Source of the DNA: an uncultured Bacteroidota bacterium
GTDB lineage: Bacteria > Bacteroidota > Bacteroidia > Chitinophagales > Chitinophagaceae
Reading direction: 5' to 3'
Assembly (NCBI GenBank): GCA_903933765.1
Contig: CAIZLI010000060.1
Location: 1-31,701 of the forward strand
Length of the DNA: 31,701 nucleotides
Shown in pieces: positions 1 to 27,273 of the stretch. Made by a program: the position numbers and the translations under genes. Position 1 is the stretch's first letter. Each line of letters starts with the position of its first letter. A model generated the notes under the pieces. The model was given only the letters and a program-made list of their open reading frames with translations, did not search any database and was not told where the DNA came from.

Positions 1-51
1 GCCTAAACCAACTAAGACAATCCATAAAAACCCAGAAATAAAGTGGTTAAC
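1..51 (-). pseudogene. Out-of-frame continuation of the DUF5690 gene
   Basis: Reading the minus strand from position 51 down to 1 gives VNHFISGFLWIVLVGLG. This hydrophobic stretch with its VLVGLG ending matches what I know of the DUF5690 C-terminal half. It lies one base out of frame with the 305-residue open frame that stops at 47-49. The AAA run at 52-54 (TTT on the coding strand) is a possible slip site. Only 17 codons are visible, because the gene runs off the window edge. Confidence 0.55.
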
Positions 52-964
52 AAATAATAAAGCCGCATAAAATAATAGTTTGCGCTAAGAAAAACGCCAA
101 CTTATTATTTTTTATATAAATCATACTTGCAATTAAGATTAACACACAAATTGCAATTGGAATTTCAGTTGTTGTAAAAATAGATGCTGTATTGCCATAG
201 CCTAATTCATTCCATAGCTCGGCTGCAAAATTGTCTCTAATGTCTCTAAATAAAGACAATAACATATAAATTAAAATAAAGGAAATTAATCCAAAACTAA
301 ATTGAGTAAAAAAATATTTTCTCTCCTTGCTATTCAATGGAACACGAACGGATTTATTTATTTTTTCTTCGTAAGTAGGATTGGGTATTTTTTCCAATAA
401 GTATACCAGCACAATCACTGGGATAATAAAAATACCCCCCGTATAAAAAGGAATCCAATTTTCTGAAATCAGGTATTGCATTTGCAACCATTTGCCCACA
501 GATTTAACAAAGCCCGAAGAAACAATGAAACTCACAGCCATAGTTGCCCCAATAAAATCGGTAGATTTTCTTCCTTCAACAAAAGAAAAAATTAAACCCC
601 AAAGAACGCCTAATGGTAAGCCATTTAAAAAAAGCATGGTCACATTCCAAGGGCTATCAATTAAGGGAAATAACAATAATGGAATCCAAGATGCTATAAG
701 TAAAATTAAAATAGCCCAGCCCCTTCCAATATGCTTTAATTCCGAAATATATTTAATTCCGCAAAATTTACTAATCGTATACCCTATGACTTGAGAGATG
801 ACTAGTATATTTTTATAATCTACCCCAAATATCTTTGGCTCATTTAAATATAAGCCAATGGTAAACGGTTTTCTAAAGGCATACACGCATGCATAGGTCA
901 AAAAGCAAATTGCTGCTATATAGATAGACAGTAATACCGAATGTTGCTTTTTATTTTGGTTCAT
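47..964 (-). CDS. DUF5690 family multipass membrane protein, C-terminus lost by apparent frameshift
   Basis: An MFS-like membrane protein of the DUF5690 family; its substrate is unknown. The 305 residues show the family's N-terminal pattern, including YAFRKPF near residue 29, a NGLPLG…FSFVEGR block around residues 115-132, and RDIRDNFAAELW in the second half. Hydrophobic segments alternate along the length. Family members as I remember them run to well over 400 residues, but here a TAA at 47-49 ends the frame. In the minus-strand frame one base away, positions 51 to 1 read VNHFISGFLWIVLVGLG, which resembles the next conserved part of the family. The gene is therefore broken by a one-base change, or the assembly has an indel. 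The ATG at 962-964 fits well. A terminator hairpin separates it from the upstream SusD gene, so it is probably transcribed independently. Confidence 0.75.
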   Translation of the reverse strand: MNQNKKQHSVLLSIYIAAICFLTYACVYAFRKPFTIGLYLNEPKIFGVDYKNILVISQVIGYTISKFCGIKYISELKHIGRGWAILILLIASWIPLLLFPLIDSPWNVTMLFLNGLPLGVLWGLIFSFVEGRKSTDFIGATMAVSFIVSSGFVKSVGKWLQMQYLISENWIPFYTGGIFIIPVIVLVYLLEKIPNPTYEEKINKSVRVPLNSKERKYFFTQFSFGLISFILIYMLLSLFRDIRDNFAAELWNELGYGNTASIFTTTEIPIAICVLILIASMIYIKNNKLAFFLAQTIILCGFIIC

Positions 965-984
965 ACCTTATCTTAAACAAATAA

Positions 985-1010
985 GGAAGAGCAGGTAAAC
1001 CTGCTCTTCC
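985..1010 (-). terminator. Hairpin terminator after the SusC-SusD operon
   Basis: A perfect inverted repeat: GGAAGAGCAGG (985-995), loop TAAA, CCTGCTCTTCC (1000-1010). The 11-bp G+C-rich stem stands out in AT-rich DNA. Read in the minus direction it begins 38 bases after the SusD stop codon and is followed by TTATTTGTTT, a fair but interrupted U-rich tail. It lies between SusD and the next minus-strand gene (DUF5690), so it probably ends the SusCD transcript and insulates the two units. A smaller repeat, CCTTAT at 966-971 with ATAAGG at 981-986, overlaps its downstream edge. Confidence 0.75.
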
Positions 1011-1048
1011 GCTAAATAAAACCCCCAATTCAAATTCAAAAAAAACTA

Positions 1049-2608
1049 TTATTTAATGATCCACATTTTTGCATTGATATCATCTGTACCTCCATATTGA
1101 GCACTGATAGCAGCTTCCAAGTTTGTTTTGTTGTTAATTCTCTCTGCACTTGGATATTGGAAACGCAATGCAACTCTTTGGCTATTACCAGAACCTGGTC
1201 CTGTATGGAAAGTTGGTACACCTGTTCTTCTCCAGTTATAATAACCTTCAGCTCCACTGTTTTGGTACATCGCTAAATACTTTTGTAACAAAATTTGCTT
1301 CAATCCATCAGCATTGTTACCAGCATATTTAACTGTTGATTGTGCGTAATATGTAGCATAATTAAAGTCAACAGTATATGTTACAGACTCCGCTAAAGTA
1401 CCGCCTGGTTTTTGGAAAGTAACTGTGTTAGCACCTTCTTTCACACCGTAGAAAGCTTGAGAAGCTTTGATACCATTTTGGTACCAAGTTTCTGCATTTT
1501 GAGTAGAAATCCAACCTCTGTTTACGGCTTCTGCAATGTTGAAACACATTTCTTGGTAACCAACTTGCGTTGTTTTTTCAGCAGTATAAGTTTGATAATA
1601 ACGCTTACGGTTGATAAATGAATACTTGCCTAAACCAGCGTTTGAACTCATTGTCGCTAAATCTTCTCCAGAACCAGCACCCATAAATGCATCATAAGAA
1701 TTAGGTGCTTTACCCGCAGCTACTAAAGCAGCAGCTGGCTCAGCAACAAAGAAAGTTCTAGGATCTTTCAAAGTTGTTAAGTTACCTAAGTAAGTAGAAG
1801 ACATGTTGTAACGAGTTGCATCAAAACCGAAATTATCTGGATTTGTAGAGTACTTGTTGTATTGGCTATTGTAAGTAAAAGCTAAATTATCATCATCGCT
1901 GCTAAATAAAGGATACTTAGTAGGATTGTTGAGGACTTCTGCAAATTTAGTTTTGATTGCTAAATCAGTATCCGCTTCTTTATTGCTCAATTGGATCAAT
2001 ACTCTCAATTTGAAAGCATTCACCGCTTTTTGCCACTTAGACAAGTTGTTACCGTAGTAGAAATCATTCGCTAATACATAGTTAGTCGTCTTTAAAGTAC
2101 CCATTTCTGTATTTGCTTCTTCTAAATAAGTCAAGATTTGTTGGAAAACTTGCTTTTGTGTATCGTACTTAGGTGTAATATTTCCTAAACCTTTTAAGGC
2201 TTCAGAAACTGGAATGTCACCTAAATTCATTGTTAAATCATACAAGAAGTAAGCTTTTAAATACTTAGCAAGCGCTGTATAAGGATTTGGAGCTGTTACA
2301 GACTTCTTTGCTTCGTCTTCCATCTTTGTGATGTTCTTTAATACATTGTAATTGTTGTATGAAAAACCAGTCCAGTTGTACTCTTGGTTTCCATAATAAT
2401 CATAATTACATACGTAATATTGATTCCATCTTTGTAAAGTATTAAATGCACCTTCATTGTATTCAAGAAGGACATTGTTTAAAAGCAAGTTCGCAGGAAC
2501 TGATGTAGCTCTATTAGGATCTGAGGCTAAAGTATCGAATGACTTTTTACATGCTGTCATTGAACTCAATACCAATCCTAAACTTAGTATTTGAAATATC
2601 TTTTTCAT
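1049..2608 (-). CDS. SusD/RagB-family outer-membrane nutrient-binding lipoprotein
   Basis: The surface-exposed lipoprotein partner of the SusC-type transporter just upstream; SusD-like proteins cap the SusC barrel and bind the nutrient. The signal peptide MKKIFQILSLGLVLSSMTAC ends in a lipobox with the lipidated cysteine at residue 20. The mature N-terminus (SFDTLASDPNRAT) is typical of the SusD_2-like branch (PF12771 type), as is the late motif NWRRTGVPTF followed by a region rich in aromatic residues and glycine (…RFQYPSAERINN). At 519 residues the length is normal. The gene starts 19 bases after the SusC stop, so the two are co-transcribed. The ligand cannot be read from the sequence; the divergent phosphoesterases suggest a phosphoester-containing compound, but that is inference. 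Confidence 0.93.
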   Translation of the reverse strand: MKKIFQILSLGLVLSSMTACKKSFDTLASDPNRATSVPANLLLNNVLLEYNEGAFNTLQRWNQYYVCNYDYYGNQEYNWTGFSYNNYNVLKNITKMEDEAKKSVTAPNPYTALAKYLKAYFLYDLTMNLGDIPVSEALKGLGNITPKYDTQKQVFQQILTYLEEANTEMGTLKTTNYVLANDFYYGNNLSKWQKAVNAFKLRVLIQLSNKEADTDLAIKTKFAEVLNNPTKYPLFSSDDDNLAFTYNSQYNKYSTNPDNFGFDATRYNMSSTYLGNLTTLKDPRTFFVAEPAAALVAAGKAPNSYDAFMGAGSGEDLATMSSNAGLGKYSFINRKRYYQTYTAEKTTQVGYQEMCFNIAEAVNRGWISTQNAETWYQNGIKASQAFYGVKEGANTVTFQKPGGTLAESVTYTVDFNYATYYAQSTVKYAGNNADGLKQILLQKYLAMYQNSGAEGYYNWRRTGVPTFHTGPGSGNSQRVALRFQYPSAERINNKTNLEAAISAQYGGTDDINAKMWIIK

Positions 2609-2627
2609 ATTTATTTGTTTCTTTTAA

Positions 2628-5600
2628 TTAAAATGTGAAATTAATATTGATACCGTAAGATCTAGTAGTTGGTGTTTGCAAATTTATAGAAGATTCACCA
2701 GGGTACTGATCAATATCAACATCATTAAATTTAGAATCTGGCATCCAGTACAATAAGTTTCTACCTACAGCTGAAACAGTTGCTTTCTTGAAGAAAGATT
2801 TTTTCATTAAAGTAGTAGGAAGTTCATATGTTAAAACCACTTCTCTTAATTTAAAGAATGTTTTACTCATGATATTCGGCTCTTCAATACCATGTACACG
2901 GCTAATATAATCTTGGATGAAAGTCTTTGTTGCATTTGGTGCAAATGTTAAACTGCTATAATTCGTAATTAAACCAGTTACGGCATCAAATTTTGGAGTT
3001 CCAGAAGCAATTTGAACACCTTCACCTACATAAGCTTTTACGCCTAAGTAATCTTGGTATCTAGCTACACCCATTGCACCTTGAACAGTCTCAAGATGAC
3101 GTCCACCTTGGAATGTTTTCTTTCTAACATAATCTTCCATTACACCACCAACACGTCCATCCACTTGCATGTTTAAAGTAAATGCTTTGTAGCTGAACTT
3201 ATTGTTTAAACCCCACACGAAATCAGGATTAGAATTACCAACTAATTGTCTCACAGGTAAGACAACCGGACGACCACCAGCATCATTGATAATTTGTCCA
3301 TCTTGTGTTCTTGCAAACTTTCTGAAGTATACCGCATCTGTTCTTGAACCCACTGTATAGAATGTATTTAAAGCAGATACGCCTGTAGGTAGTTCAATAT
3401 ACTTGTTGACGAAAGAACCAATATTGAATGTCGCATCCCAGTTCAAACCGTTTGCTTTTTTCAAAATTGCTGCATTTAAACTTACATCGTAACCAGTTCT
3501 TTTAGTTTTTGTACCATTGATTACAAAAGAACCGAAACCAGATGTTTGAGAAATTGATTTAGAGAAAATTTGAGGTCCGTCTGTGTAGCTAAAATAACTC
3601 GCTTCTAAACCAAAACGGTTGTTGATAAATCTTGTTTCTAAACCAAATTCAAGACTAGATCTGTCATCAGGCTGAACATCACTGTCTACTAATGTATTTG
3701 TGAAACCAGCTTGTGTTGTGTTGTTATAACCAATGCCTGTAGAATATACATCTGCATAAGTATAAGTAGGTCCGCCATAAGTAGAACTATATTGTTCGCC
3801 ATATCCTAGAGGAAAACTGTTATTTGGTGTAGAACCAATGTAGTCAGATACGAAGCTACCACCACCTCTTACTTTTGCATAAGAACCTCTTAATTTGAAG
3901 AAGTTAATTTGCTTTGGCATGTCGATATAATCATTCAACACAGTGCTTAAGTTGAAAGATGGATAGAAGAAAGAGTTATTGTCTTTGTTCAATGCAGACA
4001 ATTGGTCATTACGGCCAGTGATTGTTAAGTTGGCATACTTACCAGTCTCAATATCTACTGAATACATTAAAGATTTTACTCTCATTTCTGATGCAAAATT
4101 GTAAGCAATAACCGGATTTCTACTGTTTGCAAATGTGTATACATTCGGTACATTCAAATAGTTTGTAGTTACAAAATTTGAATTGTAATTGAATTGTCTA
4201 AAGTTACCTCCAGCGAAACCAGAGATATTGAAGAAATTAGCTAACTCAGGTGTTTTGAAATTAGCACGGAATTCAGAGTTAGATTCGAATAAAGATCTTC
4301 TGTCTTCTCTATAATCACCTTTGTTTTCTTCTCTACCGTAAGGATGCGCAGAGAAAGGCATTTTCTCGTTACGTAATAAATCATAAGTTGTAACAGATGT
4401 TCTAGCGAATAAATCTACATACTTGTTGATTTTATAGTCTAAGCTAGTATAAGCATAGATATCATTTTTGAAATGACCTCTAGTCCACTCATAAGCCATA
4501 AAGTAAGGGTTATGGTATCTTTGGTATTCCGCATAGATACTTTGTACACCTTCTTTACCTGGCTGCCAGTAATTTCTCATATCATCCACATTCCAGTCAG
4601 CACCACCCCAAATAGTCATTGTGTAGATCACTGAATTTGGACCGTAGTTTACGTCTGGGAAATTATCAGAATATTGCTTGTTGAAATTGATATTCGCATC
4701 TAAAGTTAATTTAGAGTTGAATCTTAATGTTCCTGCCAAATTTAAGTTTGTTGTATTTAAACTTGTGTTTGGCATAATACCCTTATTGTACGTATTACCT
4801 AAAGAAAATCTTAGATCCGCTTTTTCAGTAGAAGAGGCGATTGCAATACTAGATGTATTCAAAACACCTGGTTCAATAAAACGCTTCAAGTTATCTTTAC
4901 CACGAGCAATCCATGGTGTACCAGAACGCTTACCTGTGATTGGATCTACTGGACTATCGTACTGAGGAATCAATTGACCTTCGAATTTTGGTCCCCAAAC
5001 ATCATAATCCGCATCGTTTAAACCACCACCTAAACCATCTACGAATGCATATCTACCGTGGTCACCAGGACCGTACTCGTCTTGCGTTTTAGGTAATGCA
5101 ATAAATCCACTTTGAACCGCAGTACTGCTGTTGAATTCAACAGAGTAACCTCTTTTATCTTTCGTACCTTTCTTTGTGTTGATGATGATCGCACCATTTT
5201 GACCTCTATAACCATATAATGCAGAGGCAACTGGTCCTTTTAACACGTTATAAGACTCGATATCGTCTGGGCTAATATTCCATGTATCAGAGTTAATTGG
5301 CACACCATCCACCACAATCAAGTTCACACGTCCACCTCTTAATACAAGGTTTGGAATTCTTAACATTTCTTGGTTAAGACCTACTGTTAAACCAGCGACT
5401 TTACCTACTAAGTTATTGATTGGGTTCAATTCTCTAGCTTTCACTAAATCAGCACCCTTCACTTCTTGTGTAGCGTATCCGATTTTTCTTTTCTCTTTTT
5501 TAATACCCAAAGCAGTTACAACCACTTCGTTTAATAATTCATCCGCTTTTACTAATTCAACTACAACTGCATCGTTAGAAGCAGTCACTGTTTTAGTAAC

Positions 5601-5846
5601 ATAACCAATGTAAGAAACTGAAACAGCAGCATTCGCATTTAAGTTGTTTAAACTAAAAGCTCCATTTGCATCTGTCTTCGTAGCTTGTCCTTTAACAGAC
5701 ACAGTTGCAGACTCCAAAGCTTTTTTGGTTTCCGCATCTACCACTTTTCCTTTAAATTGTATGTTTTGAGCGATTGAGCTTAAACTCAATCCCAATAACA
5801 TAAGTGGCGTAAGAACCCACTTAATACATCGTTGTTTTGAAATCAT
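2628..5846 (-). CDS. SusC/RagA-family TonB-linked outer-membrane transporter
   Basis: A TonB-dependent outer-membrane transporter that works with the adjacent SusD. After a signal peptide ending …LSLSSIAQ comes a carboxypeptidase-regulatory-like (CarbopepD_reg_2) domain with the usual VVDAETKKALESATVSVKG and SYIGYVTKTV strands. Next is the SusC signature NEVVVTALGIKKEKR, then a plug domain (LVLRGGRVNLIVVDGVPIN, GYRGQNGAIIINTKKG), then a long beta-barrel ending in the aromatic tail …GININFTF. I chose the ATG at 5844-5846 (MISKQRC…, 1072 residues) rather than the upstream ATG at 5910-5912. The shorter form begins directly with a signal peptide, and a TAGGTTTG promoter element at 5865-5872 lies between the two ATGs, which would put the longer start upstream of the transcript. 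Confidence 0.93.
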   Translation of the reverse strand: MISKQRCIKWVLTPLMLLGLSLSSIAQNIQFKGKVVDAETKKALESATVSVKGQATKTDANGAFSLNNLNANAAVSVSYIGYVTKTVTASNDAVVVELVKADELLNEVVVTALGIKKEKRKIGYATQEVKGADLVKARELNPINNLVGKVAGLTVGLNQEMLRIPNLVLRGGRVNLIVVDGVPINSDTWNISPDDIESYNVLKGPVASALYGYRGQNGAIIINTKKGTKDKRGYSVEFNSSTAVQSGFIALPKTQDEYGPGDHGRYAFVDGLGGGLNDADYDVWGPKFEGQLIPQYDSPVDPITGKRSGTPWIARGKDNLKRFIEPGVLNTSSIAIASSTEKADLRFSLGNTYNKGIMPNTSLNTTNLNLAGTLRFNSKLTLDANINFNKQYSDNFPDVNYGPNSVIYTMTIWGGADWNVDDMRNYWQPGKEGVQSIYAEYQRYHNPYFMAYEWTRGHFKNDIYAYTSLDYKINKYVDLFARTSVTTYDLLRNEKMPFSAHPYGREENKGDYREDRRSLFESNSEFRANFKTPELANFFNISGFAGGNFRQFNYNSNFVTTNYLNVPNVYTFANSRNPVIAYNFASEMRVKSLMYSVDIETGKYANLTITGRNDQLSALNKDNNSFFYPSFNLSTVLNDYIDMPKQINFFKLRGSYAKVRGGGSFVSDYIGSTPNNSFPLGYGEQYSSTYGGPTYTYADVYSTGIGYNNTTQAGFTNTLVDSDVQPDDRSSLEFGLETRFINNRFGLEASYFSYTDGPQIFSKSISQTSGFGSFVINGTKTKRTGYDVSLNAAILKKANGLNWDATFNIGSFVNKYIELPTGVSALNTFYTVGSRTDAVYFRKFARTQDGQIINDAGGRPVVLPVRQLVGNSNPDFVWGLNNKFSYKAFTLNMQVDGRVGGVMEDYVRKKTFQGGRHLETVQGAMGVARYQDYLGVKAYVGEGVQIASGTPKFDAVTGLITNYSSLTFAPNATKTFIQDYISRVHGIEEPNIMSKTFFKLREVVLTYELPTTLMKKSFFKKATVSAVGRNLLYWMPDSKFNDVDIDQYPGESSINLQTPTTRSYGININFTF

Positions 5847-5864
5847 AGTTAATATTTTGAGACG

Positions 5865-5872
5865 CAAACCTA
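5865..5872 (-). promoter_or_regulatory. Bacteroidota -7 promoter element for susC
   Basis: On the minus strand this reads TAGGTTTG, an exact match to the Bacteroidota -7 consensus TAnnTTTG. A TTTG (CAAA at 5888-5891 on the plus strand) lies 15 bases upstream as a possible -33 element, slightly close. It would give a short leader of about a dozen bases before the ATG at 5846. Confidence 0.5.
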
Positions 5873-6031
5873 TTGTGAATTCTTTAACAAAATTTAAAAT
5901 GTATGTGAACAATAGATGAACTAATTGTTTCAGAATTGTTAACTATATAGAACAGTATAATTATAAAAATTAATGCGTTTGCTTAACAATAAATTAATGT
6001 TTCAAATAAAATATACCTAATTCATTAATGG

Positions 6032-6039
6032 TAGGTTTG
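6032..6039 (+). promoter_or_regulatory. Bacteroidota -7 promoter element for the first phosphoesterase gene
   Basis: TAGGTTTG, an exact match to TAnnTTTG and identical to the element facing the other way in front of susC. It lies 17 bases before the ATG at 6057. I see no TTTG at the expected -33 distance, which would fit an activator-dependent promoter, but this is inference. Confidence 0.45.
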
Positions 6040-6056
6040 CTGTTCAACTTTTGTCT

Positions 6057-8765
6057 ATGAAAAAATATCTTTTTTTAGTGGTTGTTATTTTGTTTTGTAT
6101 TAGTGATTCAATAGGTCAACAAAAACAATCTTTTTTAACAGTTCCTGGTTTTAACGAGTTCGCTAAAATAGACACCTCTGGTGTTTCCATTTTACCGAGT
6201 GGAAGGTATGTGCAGCCAGTAGGAAAATCAATTAGAATTACCCACGACCCATTTGGTTTAAAAATTGCCCCAGACGGGAAAGTAGCTATAGCATTACATG
6301 AAAATGTATTTACCCTAATAGACTTACAAACACAAGTCGCTAAGCGCATTCCAGATTATTTAAAAGCAAACGAAAGTCCATTAAAAAAAGGTTCTTTCTT
6401 GGGTATTGCTTTTCACCCAACTAAACAAATCGTATACCTAAGTGGAGGAGACGAGGGGACAGTTGTATTATATGATTACGCACAATTTAAAAAAATTGAT
6501 TCTATTAAATTAGACGGTGTATTCAATGGTACTAATTTCTCTGGTAGTTTTACAAGTGACCTAGTTTACCATGAAGCTTCCAATAATTTATTAATTTTAG
6601 ATAGAGGTAATTTTAGACTGGTTCGTTATAGTCTTACTGAAAATAAAATTATTGCCTCTATTCCAACAGGTCGCCAACCCTTTGGCTTAGCCATCTCCCC
6701 CGATCAAAAAACGGTTTTAGTTGCCAATGTGGGGATGTATGATTATCCTTTGGTTGCTGGTACTACAAAAGAAAATATTAAAACGCAATATATTGGCTGG
6801 CATCCATACGGTAATAACACAAAAGCATCTATTGAAGGAACAGTGATTGATGGAAAGGTGATACCAGGTTTAGGTGATCCAAATGCCAAAGAATCAATGA
6901 GTGTTTATTGTATAGATCTAAATTCAAATAAAGTAAAGGCAAAATTAAAGACGGGTTTATTATTAGGAGAACTAGTAGAAGATGCAGAAGTGATTGGCGG
7001 CGCAAGTCCTAATTCAATTGCAGTAAGTAAAAAGTATGCCTATGTGACTAATGCAACGAACGATAATATTGCTGTGATTGATTATAAAAAAGGAACGATT
7101 GTTAAACATATTCCTATTAAAGTAGATCCTAAATTAGACCGCTATAGAGGTTTATTGCCTTTTGGTATTGCGATTACAAAAGATGAAAGTACCCTATTTG
7201 TTGCTTTATTAGGATTTAATGCAGTTGCAAAAATTGATTTAAAAACTTCTACTACCACTGGATTAATTCCAACTGGATGGGGCACTACAAGAGTCGCTTT
7301 ATCTAATGATGAACAAAAAATATATATTACTTCTTGCAGAGGATTAGGAGCAGGTCAAAACGGAGGAAAAAATTTCAAAGCACCAATACAAGGTACTTAT
7401 GTAGGAGATATTCAATTAGGTGGATTTCAAGAAGTAGCTAATCCAGATCCTACAACACTTGCAGCTTACACCAAGCAAACATTGAATCAAACATATATTG
7501 TTAAAGAACAAACAGATAGTTTACCATTACCTGTTTTACCGGGAAGTAAAATAAGCCCTATTAAACACGTCGTATTTATCACTAAAGAAAACAGAACATT
7601 TGACGAAATATTTGGTCAAATGAAAAATGTAAAAGGGGATCCATCATTGGCAAGATTTGGATTAGACGTAAACGTGTATGGAAAAACACAAAATGTAAAA
7701 CACGTAAATGTGGCGCCAAATCATATTAAAATTGCAAAGCAGTTTTCATTGAGTGATAATTTTTATTGTGATAGTGACGCATCCATTCATGGACACCACT
7801 GGATGATGGGTGTGATTCCTAATGAGTGGGTAGAAGCCAATTCTAGTACAGATAAATCTGCAGATTATTTTTCGACTGCATCTGGTAGAAGGTTTCCAGG
7901 ATCAACAGGAAGTATGGATCCAGAAGATTATGCAGAAATTGGTGGATTATGGGAAGCATTAGACAGAAAAAAAATTAGCTACTATAATTTTGGACAGGCA
8001 AACGAAACTGCGCATGTAAGAGAAGATTGGTATGATACTGCAACTGGTGCTGGTCATATTGTAATGGTGCCGATGCAGAAAGGAGTATGGGAAAGAACTT
8101 CGCATAATTTTGCAGGTTACAATACCAATATTCCAGACCAATTTAGAATGAAGCAATTTGAAGAAGAGTTTACAAAAAAATGGTTGAACGGAAAAGATAG
8201 CTTACCACAATTATTAACTGTGATGTTGCCGAATGACCATACTGCTGGGCCTAGACCAGAAGATGGCTATCCCTTTATGCATTCTTATGTTGCAGACAAT
8301 GATTTGGCTTTAGGTAGAATGATGCAATTTTTGAGTCAAACACCTTATTGGAAGGATATGTTAGTCATTGTAACAGAAGATGATCCTCAAGGTGGGGTAG
8401 ATCATATTGACGCGCACAGAAGTGTATTAATGATGGCTGGACCTTATGTAAAAAAGAACTATGTTTCAAATACCCATGCAAATTTTGGATCTATCTTAAA
8501 AGTGATCTATAATGTTTTAGGCGTTCCATATGTTAATCAATATGATGTAACAGCTTCTTTGTTAACCGACTTCTTTACCAATGAGCCAGATTATAGCCCT
8601 TACTATTTTGAATTTCCAAGTCAGGAGGTTTTTGATTGGGACAAGGCAATGAAAAAATATAATTATAATTTAGATTGGAAAAAAATTAAGCAAGGACCAA
8701 GTATGGACAACGAAAAAGAGCAAAGACAGGAACATTATAAAACTTCGGGCACAATTATCCAATAA
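6057..8765 (+). CDS. Secreted beta-propeller / phosphoesterase fusion protein (YncE-like plus PF04185-like)
   Basis: A two-domain exported protein of the type annotated as bifunctional YncE family/alkaline phosphatase family. A signal peptide (…CISDSIGQ) leads into a YVTN-type beta-propeller over roughly residues 40-460, with repeats such as PFGLAISPDQKTVLVAN and YAYVTNATNDNIAVIDYKKG. The C-terminal domain begins at SPIKHVVFITKENRTFDEIF and resembles phospholipase C/acid phosphatase phosphoesterases. Candidate active-site residues are Glu511-Asn512, Ser576 and His580 (SIHGHHW), Asn726-Asp-His728, Glu774-Asp-Asp776 and Asp785-Ala-His787; all recur in the next gene. A TTG at 6051 could extend the frame by two codons, but the ATG at 6057 begins a normal signal peptide. 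The gene is divergent from susC and 44 bases before its paralogue. The substrate is unknown; phosphomonoesterase or phosphodiesterase activity is inferred. Confidence 0.88.
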   Translation: MKKYLFLVVVILFCISDSIGQQKQSFLTVPGFNEFAKIDTSGVSILPSGRYVQPVGKSIRITHDPFGLKIAPDGKVAIALHENVFTLIDLQTQVAKRIPDYLKANESPLKKGSFLGIAFHPTKQIVYLSGGDEGTVVLYDYAQFKKIDSIKLDGVFNGTNFSGSFTSDLVYHEASNNLLILDRGNFRLVRYSLTENKIIASIPTGRQPFGLAISPDQKTVLVANVGMYDYPLVAGTTKENIKTQYIGWHPYGNNTKASIEGTVIDGKVIPGLGDPNAKESMSVYCIDLNSNKVKAKLKTGLLLGELVEDAEVIGGASPNSIAVSKKYAYVTNATNDNIAVIDYKKGTIVKHIPIKVDPKLDRYRGLLPFGIAITKDESTLFVALLGFNAVAKIDLKTSTTTGLIPTGWGTTRVALSNDEQKIYITSCRGLGAGQNGGKNFKAPIQGTYVGDIQLGGFQEVANPDPTTLAAYTKQTLNQTYIVKEQTDSLPLPVLPGSKISPIKHVVFITKENRTFDEIFGQMKNVKGDPSLARFGLDVNVYGKTQNVKHVNVAPNHIKIAKQFSLSDNFYCDSDASIHGHHWMMGVIPNEWVEANSSTDKSADYFSTASGRRFPGSTGSMDPEDYAEIGGLWEALDRKKISYYNFGQANETAHVREDWYDTATGAGHIVMVPMQKGVWERTSHNFAGYNTNIPDQFRMKQFEEEFTKKWLNGKDSLPQLLTVMLPNDHTAGPRPEDGYPFMHSYVADNDLALGRMMQFLSQTPYWKDMLVIVTEDDPQGGVDHIDAHRSVLMMAGPYVKKNYVSNTHANFGSILKVIYNVLGVPYVNQYDVTASLLTDFFTNEPDYSPYYFEFPSQEVFDWDKAMKKYNYNLDWKKIKQGPSMDNEKEQRQEHYKTSGTIIQ

Positions 8766-8809
8766 TATTCAATGTATCCTTAAATTTATTAATTAATAAT
8801 CAGTAATCT

Positions 8810-11215
8810 ATGAAAGTGAAATTCACCCTTATTTGTCTAGCAGCTAGTATGGTTACTTCTATGACAAGTAATGCACAAATGAAACAAACCGTTTTGCCAA
8901 ATAATTGGAAATTAAGCCCAATCGGTAAACAATTGCCATTAGAAGATCTGCCACTTAATATTGTGGTAAGTCCAAATAAAAAATATGCAGCCATCACTAA
9001 TAATGGCCAAAGTACGCAAGGCATCCACTTAGTAGATATTGCTAAGCAGACAATATTAGATTATGCTACCACCCCTAAAAGTTGGTATGGATTGGCATTT
9101 AGTCAAAATAACCAATACTTATACGCAAGTGGAGGTAATGATAATTGGATTTTAAAATATGCTATTGGGTCAAATAAATTAAAATTAGTTGACTCTATCA
9201 AGCTTGGAGGAAAATGGCCTGTAAGAATTTCACCAACAGGACTATGTATCAATGATGCAACCAATACCATGTATGTGGTATCAAAAGAAAACAATAGTTT
9301 ATATGAAGTTAATTTAACATCCAAAAACTTTGTTGTTTATCCATTAGGTAGTGAAGCATATACTTGTGTTTTAAGCGCGGATAAAAAACAATTGTATATT
9401 TCTTTATGGGGGGCAGATCGTTTATTGATTTGGGATACAGATACAAAACAGACAATTAAAAAATTAGCCATTGGAGACAATCCAAATGAGTTATTGTTAA
9501 CTAAAAATGGTGCTTACTTATATGTAGCCAATGCAAATGACAATAGTGTTGCCGTGGTGGATACAAAGTCTTTAACAATTGTCGAAGTATTGAATTGCGC
9601 TTTATTTGCAAATGCGCCCAATGGCTCAACAACCAATGGACTAGCATTAAATGAAACTGAATCAAGATTGTATGTGGCCAATGCCGATAATAATAATTTA
9701 GCCGTTTTTGATGTAACAAAAAAAGGATTTAGTTCAAGTATTGGATTTATCCCTACTGGATGGTATCCTACCAATTTAAAGATTGTAGGTAATACCTTGT
9801 TTGTAACCAATGGTAAAGGAATTAGCTCAAAGGCAAATCCAAATGGTCCAAGTCCAGTACAAAGAAAGCAAGCCGTGAACTACCAAGCTGGAGATGTAAA
9901 AGCAAAGCCAGAACCAGTACAATATATTGGTGGCTTATTTAAGGGTACACTTTCTATATTCAAGGAACCAACATTGGCAGAACTAACTAATTTAACTAAG
10001 CAAGTTTATTTGAATACCCCTTATGATAAAAGTAAGGAATTGTCTACTTCAGGTATGCAAGGCAATCCAATCCCTAAAAATGTTGGCGATAGTTCTCCTA
10101 TCAAGCATGTATTTTATATGATCAAAGAAAATAGAACCTACGATCAGGTATTAAGTGATTTGCCACAAGGGAATGGAGATAGTAGTTTATTGCTTTTTGG
10201 TAGAAATATCACACCAAACCAACACGCAATTTCTGAGCAGTTTGTATTATTAGATAATTTTTATGTAGATGCAGAAGTAAGTGCAGACGGACATAGTTGG
10301 AGTATGGCTGCTTATGCAAATGATTATAATGAAAAGACTTGGGTCACTAGTTATGGTGGACGTGGAGGTACTTATGATTACGAAGGACAAAAGAATATTG
10401 CATCACCAAAAGGAGGATTTTTATGGGATCATGCCTTAAAAGCGAGAGTGAGCTTTAGAACCTATGGAGAATTCGCAGATGACTATGAAGCAAATTATCC
10501 GACATTACAAGGTAAATTTTGTCCTTATTTCACAAGCTGGGATGAAAAAGTAAGAGATACATCAAGGTTCTACCAATGGAAAAGAGATTTTGATTCTTTA
10601 TATGCCATCAATCAAGTACCTGCTTTAAATACGATGCGTTTTATCAACGACCATACAGAAGGTACAAGAGTTGGAAGACCAACGCCATTTGCGCATGTAG
10701 CAGACAATGATTATGCAGTAGGTTTATTTGTAGAATATTTAAGTAAGCATCCAATTTGGGATAAGATAGCCATCTTTATTTTAGAAGATGATGCACAAAA
10801 TGGCGCAGACCATGTGGATGCACACCGATCAACAGCCTATGTTGCAGGAGGATTTGTTAAAAGAGGGTTTGTAGACCATACAATGTATTCTACTTCAAGC
10901 ATGTTAAGAACCATGGAGTTAATTCTTGGCTTACCACCAATGAGTCAATATGATGCAGCAGCAGAGCCAATGTGGAGATCATTTGATACTAAAGTGAATA
11001 AAACACCATACAATGTAATTGCTCCATTGGTTGATATTAATGAGAAAAATATTAAAGTAGACGCCTTATCTAAATTGAGCGAAAGTTTAGATTTTAGTAA
11101 GGAAGATAAAGTGCCGGATTTATTGTTTAATCAAATTTTATGGAAAGCAATTAAAGGAATGAATAGTGAGATGCCAGCACCTAAAAGAAGTGCTTTTATA
11201 AAAATAATTGATTAA
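8810..11215 (+). CDS. Second secreted beta-propeller / phosphoesterase fusion protein
   Basis: A tandem paralogue of the preceding gene, 801 residues, with the same architecture. A signal peptide ends …TSNAQ. Propeller repeats cover roughly residues 35-360, for example AYLYVANANDNSVAVVDTKS and RLYVANADNNNLAVFDVTK. A phosphoesterase domain starts at SPIKHVFYMIKENRTYDQVL. The candidate catalytic and metal-binding set is preserved: Glu440-Asn441, Ser491 and His495 (SADGHSW), Asn613-Asp-His615, Glu659-Asp-Asp661 and Asp670-Ala-His672. Sequence between these anchors differs clearly from the first copy, so this is an old duplication, probably with a different substrate or product specificity (inference). 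It lies 44 bases after the first gene with no obvious promoter between, and is followed by an intrinsic terminator, so the two probably form one transcript. Confidence 0.88.
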   Translation: MKVKFTLICLAASMVTSMTSNAQMKQTVLPNNWKLSPIGKQLPLEDLPLNIVVSPNKKYAAITNNGQSTQGIHLVDIAKQTILDYATTPKSWYGLAFSQNNQYLYASGGNDNWILKYAIGSNKLKLVDSIKLGGKWPVRISPTGLCINDATNTMYVVSKENNSLYEVNLTSKNFVVYPLGSEAYTCVLSADKKQLYISLWGADRLLIWDTDTKQTIKKLAIGDNPNELLLTKNGAYLYVANANDNSVAVVDTKSLTIVEVLNCALFANAPNGSTTNGLALNETESRLYVANADNNNLAVFDVTKKGFSSSIGFIPTGWYPTNLKIVGNTLFVTNGKGISSKANPNGPSPVQRKQAVNYQAGDVKAKPEPVQYIGGLFKGTLSIFKEPTLAELTNLTKQVYLNTPYDKSKELSTSGMQGNPIPKNVGDSSPIKHVFYMIKENRTYDQVLSDLPQGNGDSSLLLFGRNITPNQHAISEQFVLLDNFYVDAEVSADGHSWSMAAYANDYNEKTWVTSYGGRGGTYDYEGQKNIASPKGGFLWDHALKARVSFRTYGEFADDYEANYPTLQGKFCPYFTSWDEKVRDTSRFYQWKRDFDSLYAINQVPALNTMRFINDHTEGTRVGRPTPFAHVADNDYAVGLFVEYLSKHPIWDKIAIFILEDDAQNGADHVDAHRSTAYVAGGFVKRGFVDHTMYSTSSMLRTMELILGLPPMSQYDAAAEPMWRSFDTKVNKTPYNVIAPLVDINEKNIKVDALSKLSESLDFSKEDKVPDLLFNQILWKAIKGMNSEMPAPKRSAFIKIID

Positions 11216-11231
11216 GTAAGCACCATTGAAT

Positions 11232-11271
11232 AAAAGCCATTCTTGAAATTATTTTCTTGAATGGCTTTTTT
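11232..11271 (+). terminator. Intrinsic terminator after the phosphoesterase pair
   Basis: The stem AAAAGCCATTC (11232-11242) pairs perfectly with GAATGGCTTTT (11259-11269), and the T run continues to 11271. Inside the loop, GAAA and TTTC can also pair, lengthening the hairpin across a small internal loop. The stem starts 16 bases after the stop codon of the second phosphoesterase and ends 38 bases before the TonB receptor ATG. This makes the receptor at least partly a separate transcription unit. Confidence 0.85.
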
Positions 11272-11309
11272 GACATTTAATTTATATTCGTAAAAATATA
11301 AGGATTAAG

Positions 11310-13388
11310 ATGCAATTGAATAAGAAATTGAGATTGGAAAATAAAATAAGGTTAGCATCTATTTTAACAACACTATTTTGTCTTAGCTACGGTGTTATCA
11401 ATGCAAACGCAACTTCGAATAATAGCTTGGGTGATACGAGCTATGTTTATTTAGATTCAATTTTTGTAAAAAGCAGGTTGAATCAAAAAAACAAGATCAA
11501 TCTGCCTTATAGTTTGGTTCAAAAAAGTGCATCCGCAATCAAATTTGGAAATTATAGAACAACTCCCGAGGCCCTAATGGGTAGCTCGGGGGTTTTTGTT
11601 CAAAAAACAAACCATGGTGGAGGTTCTGCATTTGTAAGAGGCTTAACTGGTAACCAAACATTATTAATATTGGACGGGATTCGTATTAACAATGCAACTT
11701 TCAGATATGGGCCCAATCAATATTTAAACAATATAGATTTATTTACGATTAGTCAAATTGATGTGAGTAAAGGAACTGGTTCTGTTGAATATGGATCAGA
11801 TGCCATTGGAGGTGTGATTCATTTGCATTCCTATATGCCTATGTACAATCAAAAAAAGACTTGGAGCACAAGCACCTCGCTTAAATATATTGGACAGAAT
11901 ATGGAAACGTCTAACAGAACTTCCGTGCAGTATGCGCAAAAAAACTTTGCAATCCAATCAGGGATCACATTAAGGAATTTTGGAGACTTAGTTGGCGGAA
12001 AGGATGTAGGTATTCAAAGTCCAAGTGGTTATGGCGAAACAGGGATCAATACCATTGCTAAAATTCAATTGAATAAAGGTGGAGAAATCACCATTTCATC
12101 TCGCTTCTTTATCCAAAAAGATGTGCCTATTTATCATAAAGTATTATTGGAAAGTTTTAAAGTAAATAAAATTGCTAAACAGGAAAGAAATATCCATTCA
12201 GTTCAGTGGGAAAAAAACTTGCCGTCTAAGTACCTTTCTAAGATTAAAGTAATTCAGTCTTTACAGTATTCAAATGAGGCAAGAGAAAGTAATAAGCTTA
12301 ATAATGCTATCTATAAATACGAAAGAGACCAAGTGAATTCAAATGGAACAAGTATTGACCTCTATTCCAATCCGACTAAAAATTGGCAAATCAATTCAGG
12401 GATAGATTATAATTCGGATAAAATAAAAAGCGAACTGATAGATAAAAATTTAACCACGGGATTATCTGTCAATAAAAGGGGCTTATATCCTAACAATAGC
12501 AGCTATACAAGTGTTTCTGTATTTAATTTGCATAAAATTGATCTACAAAAATGGCATTTCGAAGCAGGAGTACGTTGGAATAAATTTAGAATACAATTAA
12601 CAGATACAAGTATAGGAGCCGTGAATATACAGCCATCTGCCTTGGTTGGAAATGGAGGTATCTCTTATAAATTAAATACATCCAATTTAATCTATGCTTC
12701 CCTATCTTCTGGATACCGTGCACCGAATATTGACGATATGGGCACATTAGGTATTGTTGATTTTAGATATGAATTACCAACCAGTAATTTAGCACCTGAG
12801 AAATCATTGCACTATGAATTGGGTTATAAATTGAATACAAAACTGGTACAATTTGATTTGAGTGGCTTTTACTTAAATTTAAAAGATATCATCACAAGAC
12901 AAAAAGTAACAGGCAGCAGCATCAATGGCTATCAAGTATATTCCAAGCAAAATTCAGATGCTTCCTTCATCAAAGGATTCGAAACTAATTTGGCTCTTCA
13001 ATTCAATACACAGTTCAGATGGTCTAGTAATTTAACCTACACCTACGGTCAAAATGAAACAAAGAATGAACCAATGAGGCGTATTCCACCTTTGTTTGGG
13101 CAACAAGAACTAGCATGGAAAAAAAATAAGACACAAATTCTTGTTCAACATTTATTTGCTGGAAAGCAAGATCGTTTAGCGCAAGGAGATAAGGACGATA
13201 ATCGAATTGGTAAAAATGGTACACCCAATTGGAATGTATTTAATATCAGTCTCAATCAACAATTTAACAATGTATTTATTCAGCTAGGTGGCATCAATCT
13301 ACTGAACGAAAAATACAAAACGCATGGATCAGGTATCTATGCAATGGGACGCACTTATTCTTTACTATTGCAATGGAATTTCCATTAG
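11310..13388 (+). CDS. TonB-dependent outer-membrane receptor
   Basis: An outer-membrane transporter of 692 residues. It has a signal region (residues 1 to about 35) and a plug domain with TPEALMGSSGVFVQK, GSAFVRGLTGNQTLLILDGI, NNATFRYGPNQYLN and VEYGSDAIGGVIHL, then a beta-barrel ending in the aromatic tail LLLQWNFH. It lacks the N-terminal carboxypeptidase-like domain of the SusC protein, so it belongs to the simpler receptor type used for metal complexes, haem, cobalamin and similar ligands; the plug loosely resembles haem/haemoglobin-type receptors. An AAGGATTAAG just before the ATG at 11310 could act as a weak ribosome-binding site. It follows the phosphoesterase pair but is separated from it by a terminator. 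Its last 24 bases overlap the end of the convergent pirin gene. The ligand is unknown. Confidence 0.9.
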   Translation: MQLNKKLRLENKIRLASILTTLFCLSYGVINANATSNNSLGDTSYVYLDSIFVKSRLNQKNKINLPYSLVQKSASAIKFGNYRTTPEALMGSSGVFVQKTNHGGGSAFVRGLTGNQTLLILDGIRINNATFRYGPNQYLNNIDLFTISQIDVSKGTGSVEYGSDAIGGVIHLHSYMPMYNQKKTWSTSTSLKYIGQNMETSNRTSVQYAQKNFAIQSGITLRNFGDLVGGKDVGIQSPSGYGETGINTIAKIQLNKGGEITISSRFFIQKDVPIYHKVLLESFKVNKIAKQERNIHSVQWEKNLPSKYLSKIKVIQSLQYSNEARESNKLNNAIYKYERDQVNSNGTSIDLYSNPTKNWQINSGIDYNSDKIKSELIDKNLTTGLSVNKRGLYPNNSSYTSVSVFNLHKIDLQKWHFEAGVRWNKFRIQLTDTSIGAVNIQPSALVGNGGISYKLNTSNLIYASLSSGYRAPNIDDMGTLGIVDFRYELPTSNLAPEKSLHYELGYKLNTKLVQFDLSGFYLNLKDIITRQKVTGSSINGYQVYSKQNSDASFIKGFETNLALQFNTQFRWSSNLTYTYGQNETKNEPMRRIPPLFGQQELAWKKNKTQILVQHLFAGKQDRLAQGDKDDNRIGKNGTPNWNVFNISLNQQFNNVFIQLGGINLLNEKYKTHGSGIYAMGRTYSLLLQWNFH

Positions 13389-15543: not shown

Positions 15544-17247
15544 ATGCCACTGAAACAAATGGAAAAAATAAACATATCGAGATCACTTTATAAACTTTTT
15601 CGTTTATTAAGATTAGATGGGAAAGAAATTACAGCTTTGTATTTATTGTCAATTCTTTCGGGGTTGATCCAATTATCCTTGCCACTGGGTATTCAGGCCA
15701 TCATCAATTTTGCCATTGTTGCTACGGGCAGAAACCAACTTCCTGCATCTATGTGGGTGTTGATTCTTTTAGTGGTATTAGGTGTGCTGTTTACGGGGAT
15801 GCTAAAAATCAATCAAATGAAGATTGTGGAGAAAATTCAACAAAAGATTTTCACCAGATTCTCTTTTGAATTTTCTTATAGAATTCCAAAGCTCAATGTA
15901 AAATCGATTGACCAGTTTCATTTACCCGAATTAGTGAATCGTTTTTTTGATATTCCTACTTTACAAAAAAGTATGGCAAAATTATTACTTGATATCCCAA
16001 CTGCTGTCATTCAGTTATGTTTTGGATTAATCTTATTGGCATTTTATAATTCTGTATTTATTGTATTTGGTATTATACTACTTGTCATCTTATATTTAAT
16101 ATTATACATCTCTTCGCCTAAAGGATTTGAAGCCTCTTTACAAGAAAGTAATTTTAAATATGATATTGGAGGTTGGATTCAAGAGATTGCTAGAGGTATT
16201 AAAACTTTTAAGTTTTTTAATTCATACAATCTACATATCGAAAAAACAAACCATTTACTAGAAGGCTATTTGCATTCAAGGAATAGACATTTTCAAATTT
16301 TAAAATTACAATATTGGTCTTTGGTTGTTTTTAAAATACTCATCACTGCATCTATGTTAATTGTTGGTGGTATTTTATTAATTCGTCAAGAGATCAATAT
16401 TGGGCAGTTTATAGCAGCCGAAATTATTATTTTAACCATTATGAATGCGGTTGAGAAATTAATTGTAAGCTTAGAAACAGTCTATGATTTATTGACTAGT
16501 GTGGAGAAAATTAATAAAATAACCGAAAAACCTATTGACGAAGAAGGTTCTTACGAGTTCATTAAAAAACAAGGTATTGAAATTGAAGCTAAAAATTTGA
16601 GTTTTGGTTTTGAGAAAAATGATATCCTTCAAAACATTAGTTTTCACATCAAACCTGGACAAAAAGTAGCCATTACAGGTGATGGAGACTCTGGTAAAAC
16701 AGTCTTATTAAGACTACTTACTGGTGTTTTTCAAGATTTTAAAGGTGAACTTAGCTTTGATCAAATCCCAATCAATAATTACAACTTAAATACCCTAAGA
16801 AATCATATTGGCATTTATATGCAAAAGCAAGATATCTTCTCTGCAAGTTTATGGGAAAATATCACATTAGGCAATGCTGATATCAAAGAACAAGATGTAT
16901 TGGATGTATTCAAAATAGTAGGATTGGATAACTTTTATAAAAGTTTAAATAAGGGATTTGATACACATTTAGAGCCAACAGGCAAGCAACTAAGCTCTTC
17001 GAATGTTCAAAAGCTGCTTATTGCAAGGTCTTTACTCAATGAACCAGCGTTATTGTTATTAGATGAACCGATGAAGTTAATTGCTGCAGATGACAAACAA
17101 TTTCTGCAGAATTATTTGTTTAGCCTTAAAAATGTCACGATCATTTTTACAACAACCGATCCATCACTCATCTCTAAATCCGAAATGGTGATTCACCTCG
17201 AAAAAGGTTCGATCAAATCTATTCAAAACGCAAATGCTTCAAATTAG
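15544..17247 (+). CDS. Type I secretion-like ABC transporter (fused membrane and ATPase domains, degenerate motifs)
   Basis: The inner-membrane ABC component of a tripartite exporter. About 330 residues of membrane domain, including the IVEKIQQKIFTRFSFEFSYR segment typical of Bacteroidota HlyB-like proteins, precede an ATPase domain. There is no N-terminal C39 peptidase domain. Walker A is intact (GDGDSGKT, residues 379-386), a Q-loop is present (IYMQKQD), and Walker B is intact (LLLLDEP, Asp507-Glu508). The signature LSGGQ is replaced by LSSSN (483-487), the usual SALD D-loop by MKLIAAD, and the switch-loop His by Thr (TTDPSLI, about residue 538). As I recall, similar decay occurs in related flavobacterial proteins. 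Met6 (15559) is an alternative start. The adaptor gene follows after 6 bases. Cargo unknown. Confidence 0.88.
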   Translation: MPLKQMEKINISRSLYKLFRLLRLDGKEITALYLLSILSGLIQLSLPLGIQAIINFAIVATGRNQLPASMWVLILLVVLGVLFTGMLKINQMKIVEKIQQKIFTRFSFEFSYRIPKLNVKSIDQFHLPELVNRFFDIPTLQKSMAKLLLDIPTAVIQLCFGLILLAFYNSVFIVFGIILLVILYLILYISSPKGFEASLQESNFKYDIGGWIQEIARGIKTFKFFNSYNLHIEKTNHLLEGYLHSRNRHFQILKLQYWSLVVFKILITASMLIVGGILLIRQEINIGQFIAAEIIILTIMNAVEKLIVSLETVYDLLTSVEKINKITEKPIDEEGSYEFIKKQGIEIEAKNLSFGFEKNDILQNISFHIKPGQKVAITGDGDSGKTVLLRLLTGVFQDFKGELSFDQIPINNYNLNTLRNHIGIYMQKQDIFSASLWENITLGNADIKEQDVLDVFKIVGLDNFYKSLNKGFDTHLEPTGKQLSSSNVQKLLIARSLLNEPALLLLDEPMKLIAADDKQFLQNYLFSLKNVTIIFTTTDPSLISKSEMVIHLEKGSIKSIQNANASN

Positions 17248-17253
17248 AATTGT

Positions 17254-23753: not shown

Positions 23754-23818
23754 CTATTTTGAATTCAAGTATAAAACAATGGAAACGAAGGTTTTGTTTA
23801 ATATTTAGTGAAAATTTG

Positions 23819-26712: not shown

Positions 26713-27273
26713 CTAAGCTGATTTTCTTACAAATTTTGTAAGAATCACAATAGTTTGCTCGTTCACTTTGCCCTCTATCTGATCTGTATTGTCAGGCACC
26801 AATCTAATTTTTCTTACAACAGTCCCTTTAGGCGCCATAAAGTTAGCGCCTTTTACATTCAATACTTGAGTAAGTACCACTGTGTCTCCGTTTTCTAAAG
26901 GCGTGTTATTACTATCTACATGAACTGCTTGTTTAATAAATGCAGATACTGCCCAAGTAATCACCGTCTCGTCAAGTTCAACCGAAGACATGATTTCACT
27001 CGCCCAGTCTTTGACTTTATTGGCATATAAAACTCTGTAAGTCAAAGCTTGCACACTTGGTTCAGTATTCCAAATACTGCCTGCAAGGCATTGCCAATGA
27101 TTGCCTGCATCTTCTTTATCCAAGTTGGTTAAACAAGTATCACATAATGCTACTTCGTTTTCAATGACATCATTGTTTTTTGGACTCACTGCATAATCAT
27201 GTGTTGCAGGTTCAGTTGTACAAAGCTCACATAGTCCTTGACACCTTTCGTTTAATTTAGTAGAGACACTCAT
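26713..27273 (-). CDS. phnA: PhnA-family zinc-ribbon protein
   Basis: A PhnA-like protein with an extended middle region (186 residues; the shortest PhnA proteins are about 110). The N-terminal zinc ribbon has Cys15-x2-Cys18 (CELC) and Cys44-x2-Cys47 (CDTC). The C-terminal domain carries the PhnA pattern SNNTPLENGDTVVLTQVLNV…GTVVRKIRLV…KFVRK. Despite the historical name, PhnA proteins are not part of the C-P lyase pathway, and I see no phosphonate genes here, so a link to the upstream phosphoesterase locus should not be assumed. It lies 25 bases after the RNA helicase start and 36 bases before the DCC gene, all on one strand. Confidence 0.87.
   Translation of the reverse strand: MSVSTKLNERCQGLCELCTTEPATHDYAVSPKNNDVIENEVALCDTCLTNLDKEDAGNHWQCLAGSIWNTEPSVQALTYRVLYANKVKDWASEIMSSVELDETVITWAVSAFIKQAVHVDSNNTPLENGDTVVLTQVLNVKGANFMAPKGTVVRKIRLVPDNTDQIEGKVNEQTIVILTKFVRKSA

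Follow-up and report, generated by a model that had tools for sequence, protein, structure and literature searches.

A SusCD locus of an uncultured Bacteroidota bacterium that looks like half of a phosphonate uptake-and-breakdown gene set

The stretch of DNA analysed here (the window, 31,701 nucleotides) is the whole contig of a MAG with a completeness of 77%, and it appears to hold one half of the genes for taking up phosphonates, compounds with a carbon-phosphorus bond, through the outer membrane and degrading them to obtain phosphate. Judged from sequence, the locus is probably a SusCD-based, phosphonate-utilising PUS that was split by the contig end. The analysis established which genes are present and linked, the families to which they belong and the conservation of folds and residues, whereas substrate, every transport and catalytic step and induction by low phosphate are predicted. 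The sequence-only reading of the window had proposed the scavenging of a phosphate-containing organic compound with the help of two phosphoesterases. The organic-phosphorus scavenging role was retained, but an esterified phosphonate is a more likely compound than a generic phosphoester, because the locus continues into a C-P pathway with DUF5690 as permease candidate. The locus runs past the end of the contig, which is why the earlier reading missed the likely substrate.

Gene layout and its continuation on a second contig

The following features were assigned in the window.

47 to 964, minus strand: DUF5690 (PF18943), N-terminal part, E = 2.9e-107, cut by the contig end
1049 to 2608, minus strand: SusD-like_2 outer-membrane lipoprotein, PusD candidate, PF12771 E = 1.5e-63, lipobox by eye
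2628 to 5912, minus strand: SusC/RagA TonB-linked outer-membrane transporter, PusC candidate, TIGR04056 392.9 bits (cut-off 368.25)
5847 to 6056, no strand: intergenic region that separates the divergently oriented SusC and P1 genes
6051 to 8765, plus strand: P1, exported propeller and PF04185 phosphoesterase, 51.4 bits (cut-off 23)
8810 to 11215, plus strand: P2, exported propeller-PF04185 paralogue, 34.6 bits (cut-off 23)
11310 to 13388, plus strand: TonB-dependent receptor, PF00593 and PF07715
25429 to 26253: PF00756 esterase, 12 kb from the locus

Family matches confirmed the five-gene layout of SusCD, P1, P2 and the TonB receptor claimed earlier. SusC and SusD scored over the cut-offs of TIGR04056 and PF12771, respectively, giving the SusC-SusD pair of a PUS. 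The best NCBIfam models for the TonB receptor were of the heme/hemoglobin type, every one of them far below its cut-off (158.5 bits for TIGR01785, cut-off 316.85), and heme uptake would be one possible role. The start codons are likely the ATG at 6057 for P1 and that at about 5846 for SusC rather than TTG. Six promoter-like sites were counted between 5600 and 6300, compared with a mean of 2.9 after shuffling, a result of no diagnostic value.

As also claimed earlier, families of glycoside hydrolases or polysaccharide lyases were not detected by Pfam scan in 24 of the 25 window ORFs of at least 100 aa, the scan having left out one 100-aa ORF (492-794, antisense to DUF5690); 3 of the 24 had no match whatever. 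The statement that phosphoesterases are the only degradative enzymes is valid only up to the contig end, since the window stops inside the DUF5690 gene, and past this point phosphonate-catabolism genes were found on contig C2.

The N-terminal piece of DUF5690 in the window (about 270 residues) lies left of SusD and the other piece stands at the start of contig C2 from that MAG (L133, about 39-425), placing the two pieces at two contig ends; the gene is whole in the relatives L051, L053, L054, L055 and L062. On C2 it is followed by a TIGR03364 FAD oxidoreductase of the PbfD family (388.2 bits, cut-off 285.1), a PhnZ/TmpB-type HD oxygenase and a PhnX-like hydrolase, and no PhnW was seen in this cluster. 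The HD oxygenase belongs to TIGR03276 (223.2 bits, cut-off 214.6), and its diiron ligands align by eye with those of the PhnZ/TmpB HD-domain diiron oxygenases (PDB 4mlm and 6npa), whereas its score lies below the TmpB equivalog cut-off (185.1 versus 300). The best PDB matches of the PhnX-like hydrolase were phosphonoacetaldehyde hydrolases; against TIGR03351 (cut-off 218.9, passed by 7 of 21 matches in the phylum sample) it scored 210.5 bits in the MAG and 222.7 bits in L053.

Propeller matches lie N-terminal to PF04185 in both P1 and P2. The predicted structure of P1 comprises a 7-bladed YncE-like propeller (residues ~55-465) and a PF04185 phosphoesterase (~500-840); the matches of the fold search were filled by propellers, and the fold likeness covers the propeller portion. 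Both proteins belong to PF04185 by score over the Pfam cut-off and by conserved motif residues, with ENR, NDH, EDD and DHxDxHR invariant across 34 aligned P1/P2 proteins and the same residues kept in P2. This family is shared with AcpA and other PF04185 phosphoesterases (local similarity to 2d1g is weak, with E = 3.6e-5), in contrast to which the present proteins add an N-terminal YncE-like propeller; their phosphoesterase activity is predicted. The N-termini of P1 and P2 carry a signal-peptide-like stretch without lipobox, and the compartments of P1, P2 and SusD were assigned by eye. Two PF04185 proteins adjoining SusCD, with no glycoside hydrolase or lyase family in the ORFs scanned, correspond to the phosphoesterase content of a PUS.

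DUF5690 is a candidate inner-membrane organophosphorus permease. Its fold is that of the MFS and agrees with the OPA (GlpT/UhpT) fold, with MFS families other than OPA matching equally well or better. Residues R31, K66 and R240 were kept in all 30 of the DUF5690 proteins aligned and correspond to R45, K80 and R269 of GlpT, which we take to be the phosphate-binding residues. The hhalign comparison with E. coli GlpT/UhpT/UhpC, using a 3-sequence template profile, was not significant (probability 3%, E 0.015; 0.4% for the single control, NepI), and phmmer and hmmsearch against PDB gave no match to GlpT at E<=1.

Conservation of the gene neighbourhood

The neighbourhoods of P1 relatives were counted in 45 loci with at least 8 kb on each side, 35 loci with shorter flanks being omitted; together these are the best 80 of 216 loci, which are mutually related, and the counts ignore kinship. 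A phosphonate enzyme was nearby in 28 of the 45 (with profiles of PhnA, PhnY and PhnW built from 3-4 sequences each) and DUF5690 in 27. SusC and SusD were both nearby in 29, as found with detectors that were built from P1 loci and may overlook SusD proteins of a different type, and a Sus gene and a phosphonate enzyme occurred together in 24. Operon-like sets of SusC, SusD, P1, HD oxygenase, PhnX-like hydrolase, DUF5690 and PbfD, with or without P2 and the TonB receptor, recur among these loci. In a sample of 296 Bacteroidota genomes, 20 of the 21 carriers of a PhnX-like gene also carried DUF5690, within 3 kb in 17 of them. Among 39 loci that combine Sus with phosphonate genes, in which the same genome may occur twice and no distance limit was set, 5 had neither P1 nor the PF01663 enzyme, which counts against the route proposed below.

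Distant paralogues served as controls (29 loci, that is 30 places minus the P2 of the window itself; in 10 of them one flank was shorter than 7-7.5 kb and 19 pass). A phosphonate enzyme was found in one of the 29, itself beside a P1, DUF5690 in none, SusC or SusD in 4 and a TonB receptor in 1; a subset of 14 loci gave no phosphonate enzyme, DUF5690 or SusC/D and one TonB receptor. The conserved linkage expected by the earlier reading was thus borne out for SusCD and P1 (29/45 versus 4/29), but P2 (15/45) and the TonB receptor (20/45) were less constant. The same control rules out that all PF04185-propeller proteins, thousands of which turned up in searches, are phosphonate enzymes, and this also applies to P1-like loci at 38-42% identity, where one of 7 (L138) had a phosphonate enzyme. 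P1 itself is not phosphonate-only, because 17 of the 45 loci have no phosphonate enzyme nearby; in one of these, L107, it adjoins polyphosphate kinase.

DUF5690-centred loci were counted at 27 of 31 places, omitting both pieces of the window gene, G087, which shares its contig with a locus of the P1 set (L104), and G207, where the ORF caller picked a different frame and a P1-like gene and PhnW adjoin. None of the six phosphonate families tested was present in 9 of the 27, where aspartate oxidase, TatD, glycosyltransferase and others were neighbours, ruling out DUF5690 as an exclusively phosphonate gene.

Proposed route and rival explanations

In the proposed system, SusCD would take up a conjugated aminophosphonate, such as a phosphonolipid headgroup or an AEP-decorated glycan, and exported P1 (and P2) would cut the phosphonate ester in the periplasm, freeing AEP, N-methyl-AEP or a hydroxylated form. 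Comparable PF04185 enzymes act on phosphate esters, which counts against this predicted hydrolysis. DUF5690, as a putative divergent GlpT/AepP-like MFS antiporter, would move the aminophosphonate into the cytoplasm, where the PbfD-like FAD oxidase may yield phosphonoacetaldehyde and the PhnX-like hydrolase may split the latter to release phosphate, while the PhnZ/TmpB-like HD oxygenase may handle 1-hydroxylated relatives. The locus would be induced by low phosphate.

Alternatively, the locus could be a general Pi-starvation PUS, in which SusCD, P1 and P2 scavenge ordinary phosphodiesters (phospholipid headgroups, nucleotides) and the phosphonate genes adjoin only through a common Pho regulon. 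We consider this unlikely on balance. It is favoured by the 17 P1 loci without phosphonate enzyme, by L067 and L068, which have no phosphonate enzyme and where a GDPD adjoins P1, and by PusCD1 of F. johnsoniae, which in the parts of PMC8115612 compared here sits with phosphodiesterases, its presumed targets being lipid headgroups and nucleic acids. However, the recurrence of operon-like SusCD-P1-HD-PhnX-like-DUF5690-PbfD sets and the single phosphonate enzyme near the 29 distant paralogues, at the one that stands beside a P1, argue against it.

It is quite improbable that only DUF5690, PbfD, HD oxygenase and PhnX serve phosphonates, with free AEP entering through porins and SusCD and the TonB receptor serving an unrelated substrate (metal chelate, glycan). 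In favour of this, the small free AEP would have no obvious need of SusCD, the likeness of the TonB receptor is to heme receptors (below cut-off), and four loci with both P1 and phosphonate genes (L082, L088, L094 and L115) showed no Sus gene, yet a Sus gene accompanies a phosphonate enzyme in more than half of the P1 loci. The SusCD pair of L053 and L055 is of another, distant class, which would fit an unrelated substrate, but in other lineages this class itself is found where phosphonate genes are (L074, L076, L130 and L151). A plain PUL was rejected because no glycoside hydrolase or lyase family stands beside SusCD in the 24 ORFs scanned. Although SusCD is the hallmark of polysaccharide loci and a PF00756 esterase is encoded at a distance of 12 kb, a locus of this kind with its carbohydrate enzymes elsewhere is highly improbable, given that the recurrent partners are phosphorus enzymes.

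Relation to known systems

The locus appears to be a variant of a type of SusCD locus for phosphate scavenging that is known from Flavobacterium, where Pi-induced loci of SusCD and phosphoesterases were published as PusCD/PUS (Lidbury et al. 2020, PMC8115612). In the parts of that source compared here, SusCD likewise stands beside phosphoesterases instead of carbohydrate enzymes, and inner-membrane organophosphorus transporters are present, of which DUF5690 is a candidate counterpart. PusD1/PusD2 are PF07980/PF14322, whereas SusD here is PF12771, and induction by low Pi was demonstrated there and is predicted here. Phosphonate-degrading enzymes in PusCD clusters are mentioned in one sentence, and 'PF04185' is absent from the main text, although the figures could show it, or DUF5690, by another name.

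The compared parts of the phosphonate papers deal mainly with Proteobacteria, the transport paper among them with inner-membrane uptake, and do not address how lipid- or glycan-bound phosphonates cross the outer membrane. Searches of open-licence literature found no link of phosphonate, SusD and aminoethylphosphonate or of phosphonate/phosphonatase and TonB dependence in Bacteroidetes, and nothing on DUF5690/PF18943; 'Bacteroid', 'SusC' and 'TonB' were all absent from the review PMC10574752. We tentatively suggest, at slightly less than an even chance, a dedicated outer-membrane route for conjugated phosphonates, in which SusCD would import material derived from phosphonolipids or phosphonoglycans, a propeller-PF04185 protein would act as an exported phosphonate-ester hydrolase linked to C-P breakdown, and DUF5690 would form a new family of aminophosphonate permeases found across Bacteroidota. 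If so, Bacteroidota would use SusCD to carry bound phosphonates across the outer membrane, DUF5690 would gain a testable transport role and the propeller-PF04185 proteins a candidate substrate class.

According to PMC8316502, AepP is a GlpT-like AEP permease and is itself reported in one Bacteroidete, Kriegella aquimaris; it shares with DUF5690 the MFS fold, the kept GlpT phosphate-binding residues and adjoining AEP catabolism genes, but DUF5690 lacks its likeness to GlpT in the phmmer and hmmsearch comparisons described above. The hydrolytic PbfD/PhnX pathway for AEP and N-methyl-AEP (PMC10590968) likewise includes a TIGR03364 FAD oxidase, together with a PhnX-type hydrolase of which the PhnX-like protein here is a candidate counterpart. 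Its oxidases are mainly from proteobacteria and some PVC, with 'Bacteroid' absent from the main text, whereas the genes here stand with SusCD, DUF5690 and the HD oxygenase. The phosphonatase operons of Achromobacter, a glyphosate-degrading proteobacterium, have no SusCD in the portion of PMC11203657 compared, a paper in which 'Bacteroid' does not occur; they carry the same trio of PhnX (PhnX-like here), TIGR03364 (HpnW) and TIGR03276 (PhnHD), close together.

Gene content of the cluster and its continuation on a second contig

The SusC-SusD pair, the tandem propeller-PF04185 proteins P1 and P2 and the TonB receptor described in the sequence-only reading were all in place, each with at least one model above its curated cut-off. 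A sixth gene, encoding DUF5690 (PF18943, an MFS-fold permease candidate), was found at the edge of the window.

Genes of the cluster in the window (coordinates, strand, product)
47-964, minus: DUF5690; the window stops inside the gene
1049-2608, minus: SusD
2628-5912, minus: SusC
6051-8765, plus: P1, propeller-PF04185; N-terminus signal-like
8810-11215, plus: P2, propeller-PF04185, in tandem with P1; N-terminus signal-like
11310-13388, plus: TonB receptor

The earlier statement that glycoside hydrolases and lyases are absent here was also borne out, with neither kind of family found among the 24 of 25 window ORFs scanned. Elsewhere in the window, consecutive ABC transporter, HlyD-like and OEP genes (15544-19996) resemble a type I secretion exporter, and an arginase-family gene adjoins a TonB receptor bearing a carboxypeptidase-like domain (21297-24760). 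A PF03831 YjdM protein is encoded at 26713-27273; its "PhnA domain" name we take to be no evidence of phosphonate use.

Contig C60, which makes up the whole window, belongs to a metagenome-assembled genome (MAG) of 1.64 Mb and 77% completeness. Judged from the named loci closest to it, this MAG is probably a member of Chitinophagaceae. The missing part of the window's DUF5690 gene forms the start of another contig of the same genome, C2. There it is followed by genes matching TIGR03364 (PbfD-like FAD oxidase; 388.2 bits, cut-off 285.1), TIGR03276 (HD oxygenase; 223.2 bits, cut-off 214.6) and TIGR03351 (210.5 bits, below the cut-off of 218.9), together with a gene for a beta-lactamase-fold hydrolase. 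TIGR03276 is the PhnZ/TmpB-like oxygenase group and TIGR03351 the PhnX-like group. The best solved match of the TIGR03276 protein was TmpB, with the ligand residues aligned, and the best PDB matches of the TIGR03351 protein were phosphonoacetaldehyde hydrolases. DUF5690, the three TIGR genes, SusCD, P1, P2 and the receptor lie on a single contig in four relatives (L053, L054, L055 and L062); in a fifth, L051, the contig stops within the HD gene. Because of the genes on C2 and these single-contig relatives, the cluster across C60 and C2 reads, from its gene content, as a phosphonate locus.

According to PMC10590968, PbfD (TIGR03364) enzymes oxidize the aminophosphonate AEP and N-methyl-AEP to phosphonoacetaldehyde. 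The trio on C2 resembles that of Achromobacter operons, for which PhnX, HpnW (TIGR03364) and PhnHD (TIGR03276) are already in print (PMC11203657).

Linkage of P1 with phosphonate and Sus genes

Among 80 named P1 loci (the best 80 of 216), 45 had flanks of 8 kb or more in both directions, and their neighbours within about 9.5 kb of P1 were tallied. A phosphonate enzyme was near P1 in 28 of the 45 loci and lacking near it in the other 17; HD was near P1 in 26, the PhnX-like hydrolase in 22 and the PbfD-like oxidase in 22. DUF5690 was near P1 in 27/45, and a Sus gene occurred together with a phosphonate enzyme in 24/45. The co-location proposed in the sequence-only reading held in part, since SusC and SusD accompanied P1 in 29/45 loci but the TonB receptor (20/45) and P2 (15/45) were less constant. 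PhnW, PhnY and PhnA stood in place of PbfD and PhnX at two loci, L085 and L089 (with NCBIfam confirmation for L089).

For the control, distant propeller-PF04185 paralogues were taken from a phylum sample, at 29 loci in all (30 places minus the window's own P2). A phosphonate enzyme was present at one of these, L217, which itself adjoins a P1; DUF5690 was present at none, and SusC or SusD at four. A 14-locus subset of these controls had no phosphonate enzyme, DUF5690, SusC or SusD. At P1-like loci of 38-42% identity, a phosphonate enzyme was found in one of seven.

Other arrangements were also observed. At three distant paralogue loci (L205, L207 and L215) SusC and SusD are close and a phosphonate enzyme is absent. 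In Segetibacter aerophilus (L107:7535-9640) the P1 orthologue adjoins a polyphosphate kinase, with a TonB receptor close by and without phosphonate enzymes.

The 39 loci with both Sus and phosphonate genes carried P1 alone (24), P1 with an exported-looking PF01663 enzyme (6), the PF01663 enzyme alone (4) or neither (5), so two different phosphodiesterase-type families stand beside one pathway. The glycerophosphodiester phosphodiesterase family (GDPD) was near P1 in 8/45 loci, two of them without a phosphonate enzyme; its presence would fit glycerol-linked phosphonates.

Proposed compartments and SusCD exchange

N-termini were sorted by eye in up to seven proteins per family. Those of P1, P2, the PF01663 enzyme and GDPD looked exported, and those of PbfD, HD and PhnX did not. 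On the basis of this sorting, we propose a scheme in which SusCD would act at the outer membrane, ester cleavage would take place outside the cytoplasm, DUF5690 would provide the step between that cleavage and the cytoplasmic reactions, and the C-P bond would be broken in the cytoplasm. The P1 propeller is YncE-like, and the PF04185 motif residues were invariant across the aligned P1 and P2 proteins; P1 would cleave the ester of this scheme and may also serve other esters.

Two close relatives, L053 and L055, carry a SusC-SusD pair of a different and distant class (SusD 31-32% and SusC 38-40% identical to those of the window), and the flanks retain 82-94% DNA identity to the window, with breaks near window positions 1091 and 5453. 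The best matches of this class in other lineages were 68-82% (SusC) and 63-78% (SusD) identical, and four of them are phosphonate loci (L074, L076, L130 and L151). A distant SusCD class between conserved flanks, with phosphonate loci among its matches elsewhere, suggests that the outer-membrane part may be swapped as a unit while the pathway behind it stays constant.

Relation to known loci and further observations

This kind of locus is already known, since Lidbury et al. 2020 (PMC8115612), on the SusCD-based phosphate-scavenging loci of Flavobacterium, is prior art for it. Within the literature searched, three points are new: the version that combines propeller-PF04185 proteins with DUF5690, including the order of its genes; the spread of this version through Chitinophagaceae and relatives; and the candidate role for DUF5690.

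A second, full-length DUF5690 gene of the same MAG (G000:C65:2731-3876, L141) lies near a glycosyltransferase-like gene, and no phosphonate enzyme was found on its 8.4 kb contig. Caulobacter vibrioides, a control outside Bacteroidota, also gave a DUF5690 match above the cut-off. An HTH and cupin protein of about 194 aa, a candidate pathway regulator, recurs beside phosphonate loci (L072:4122-4712, with relatives at L137, L148-L152, L174 and L177-L183).
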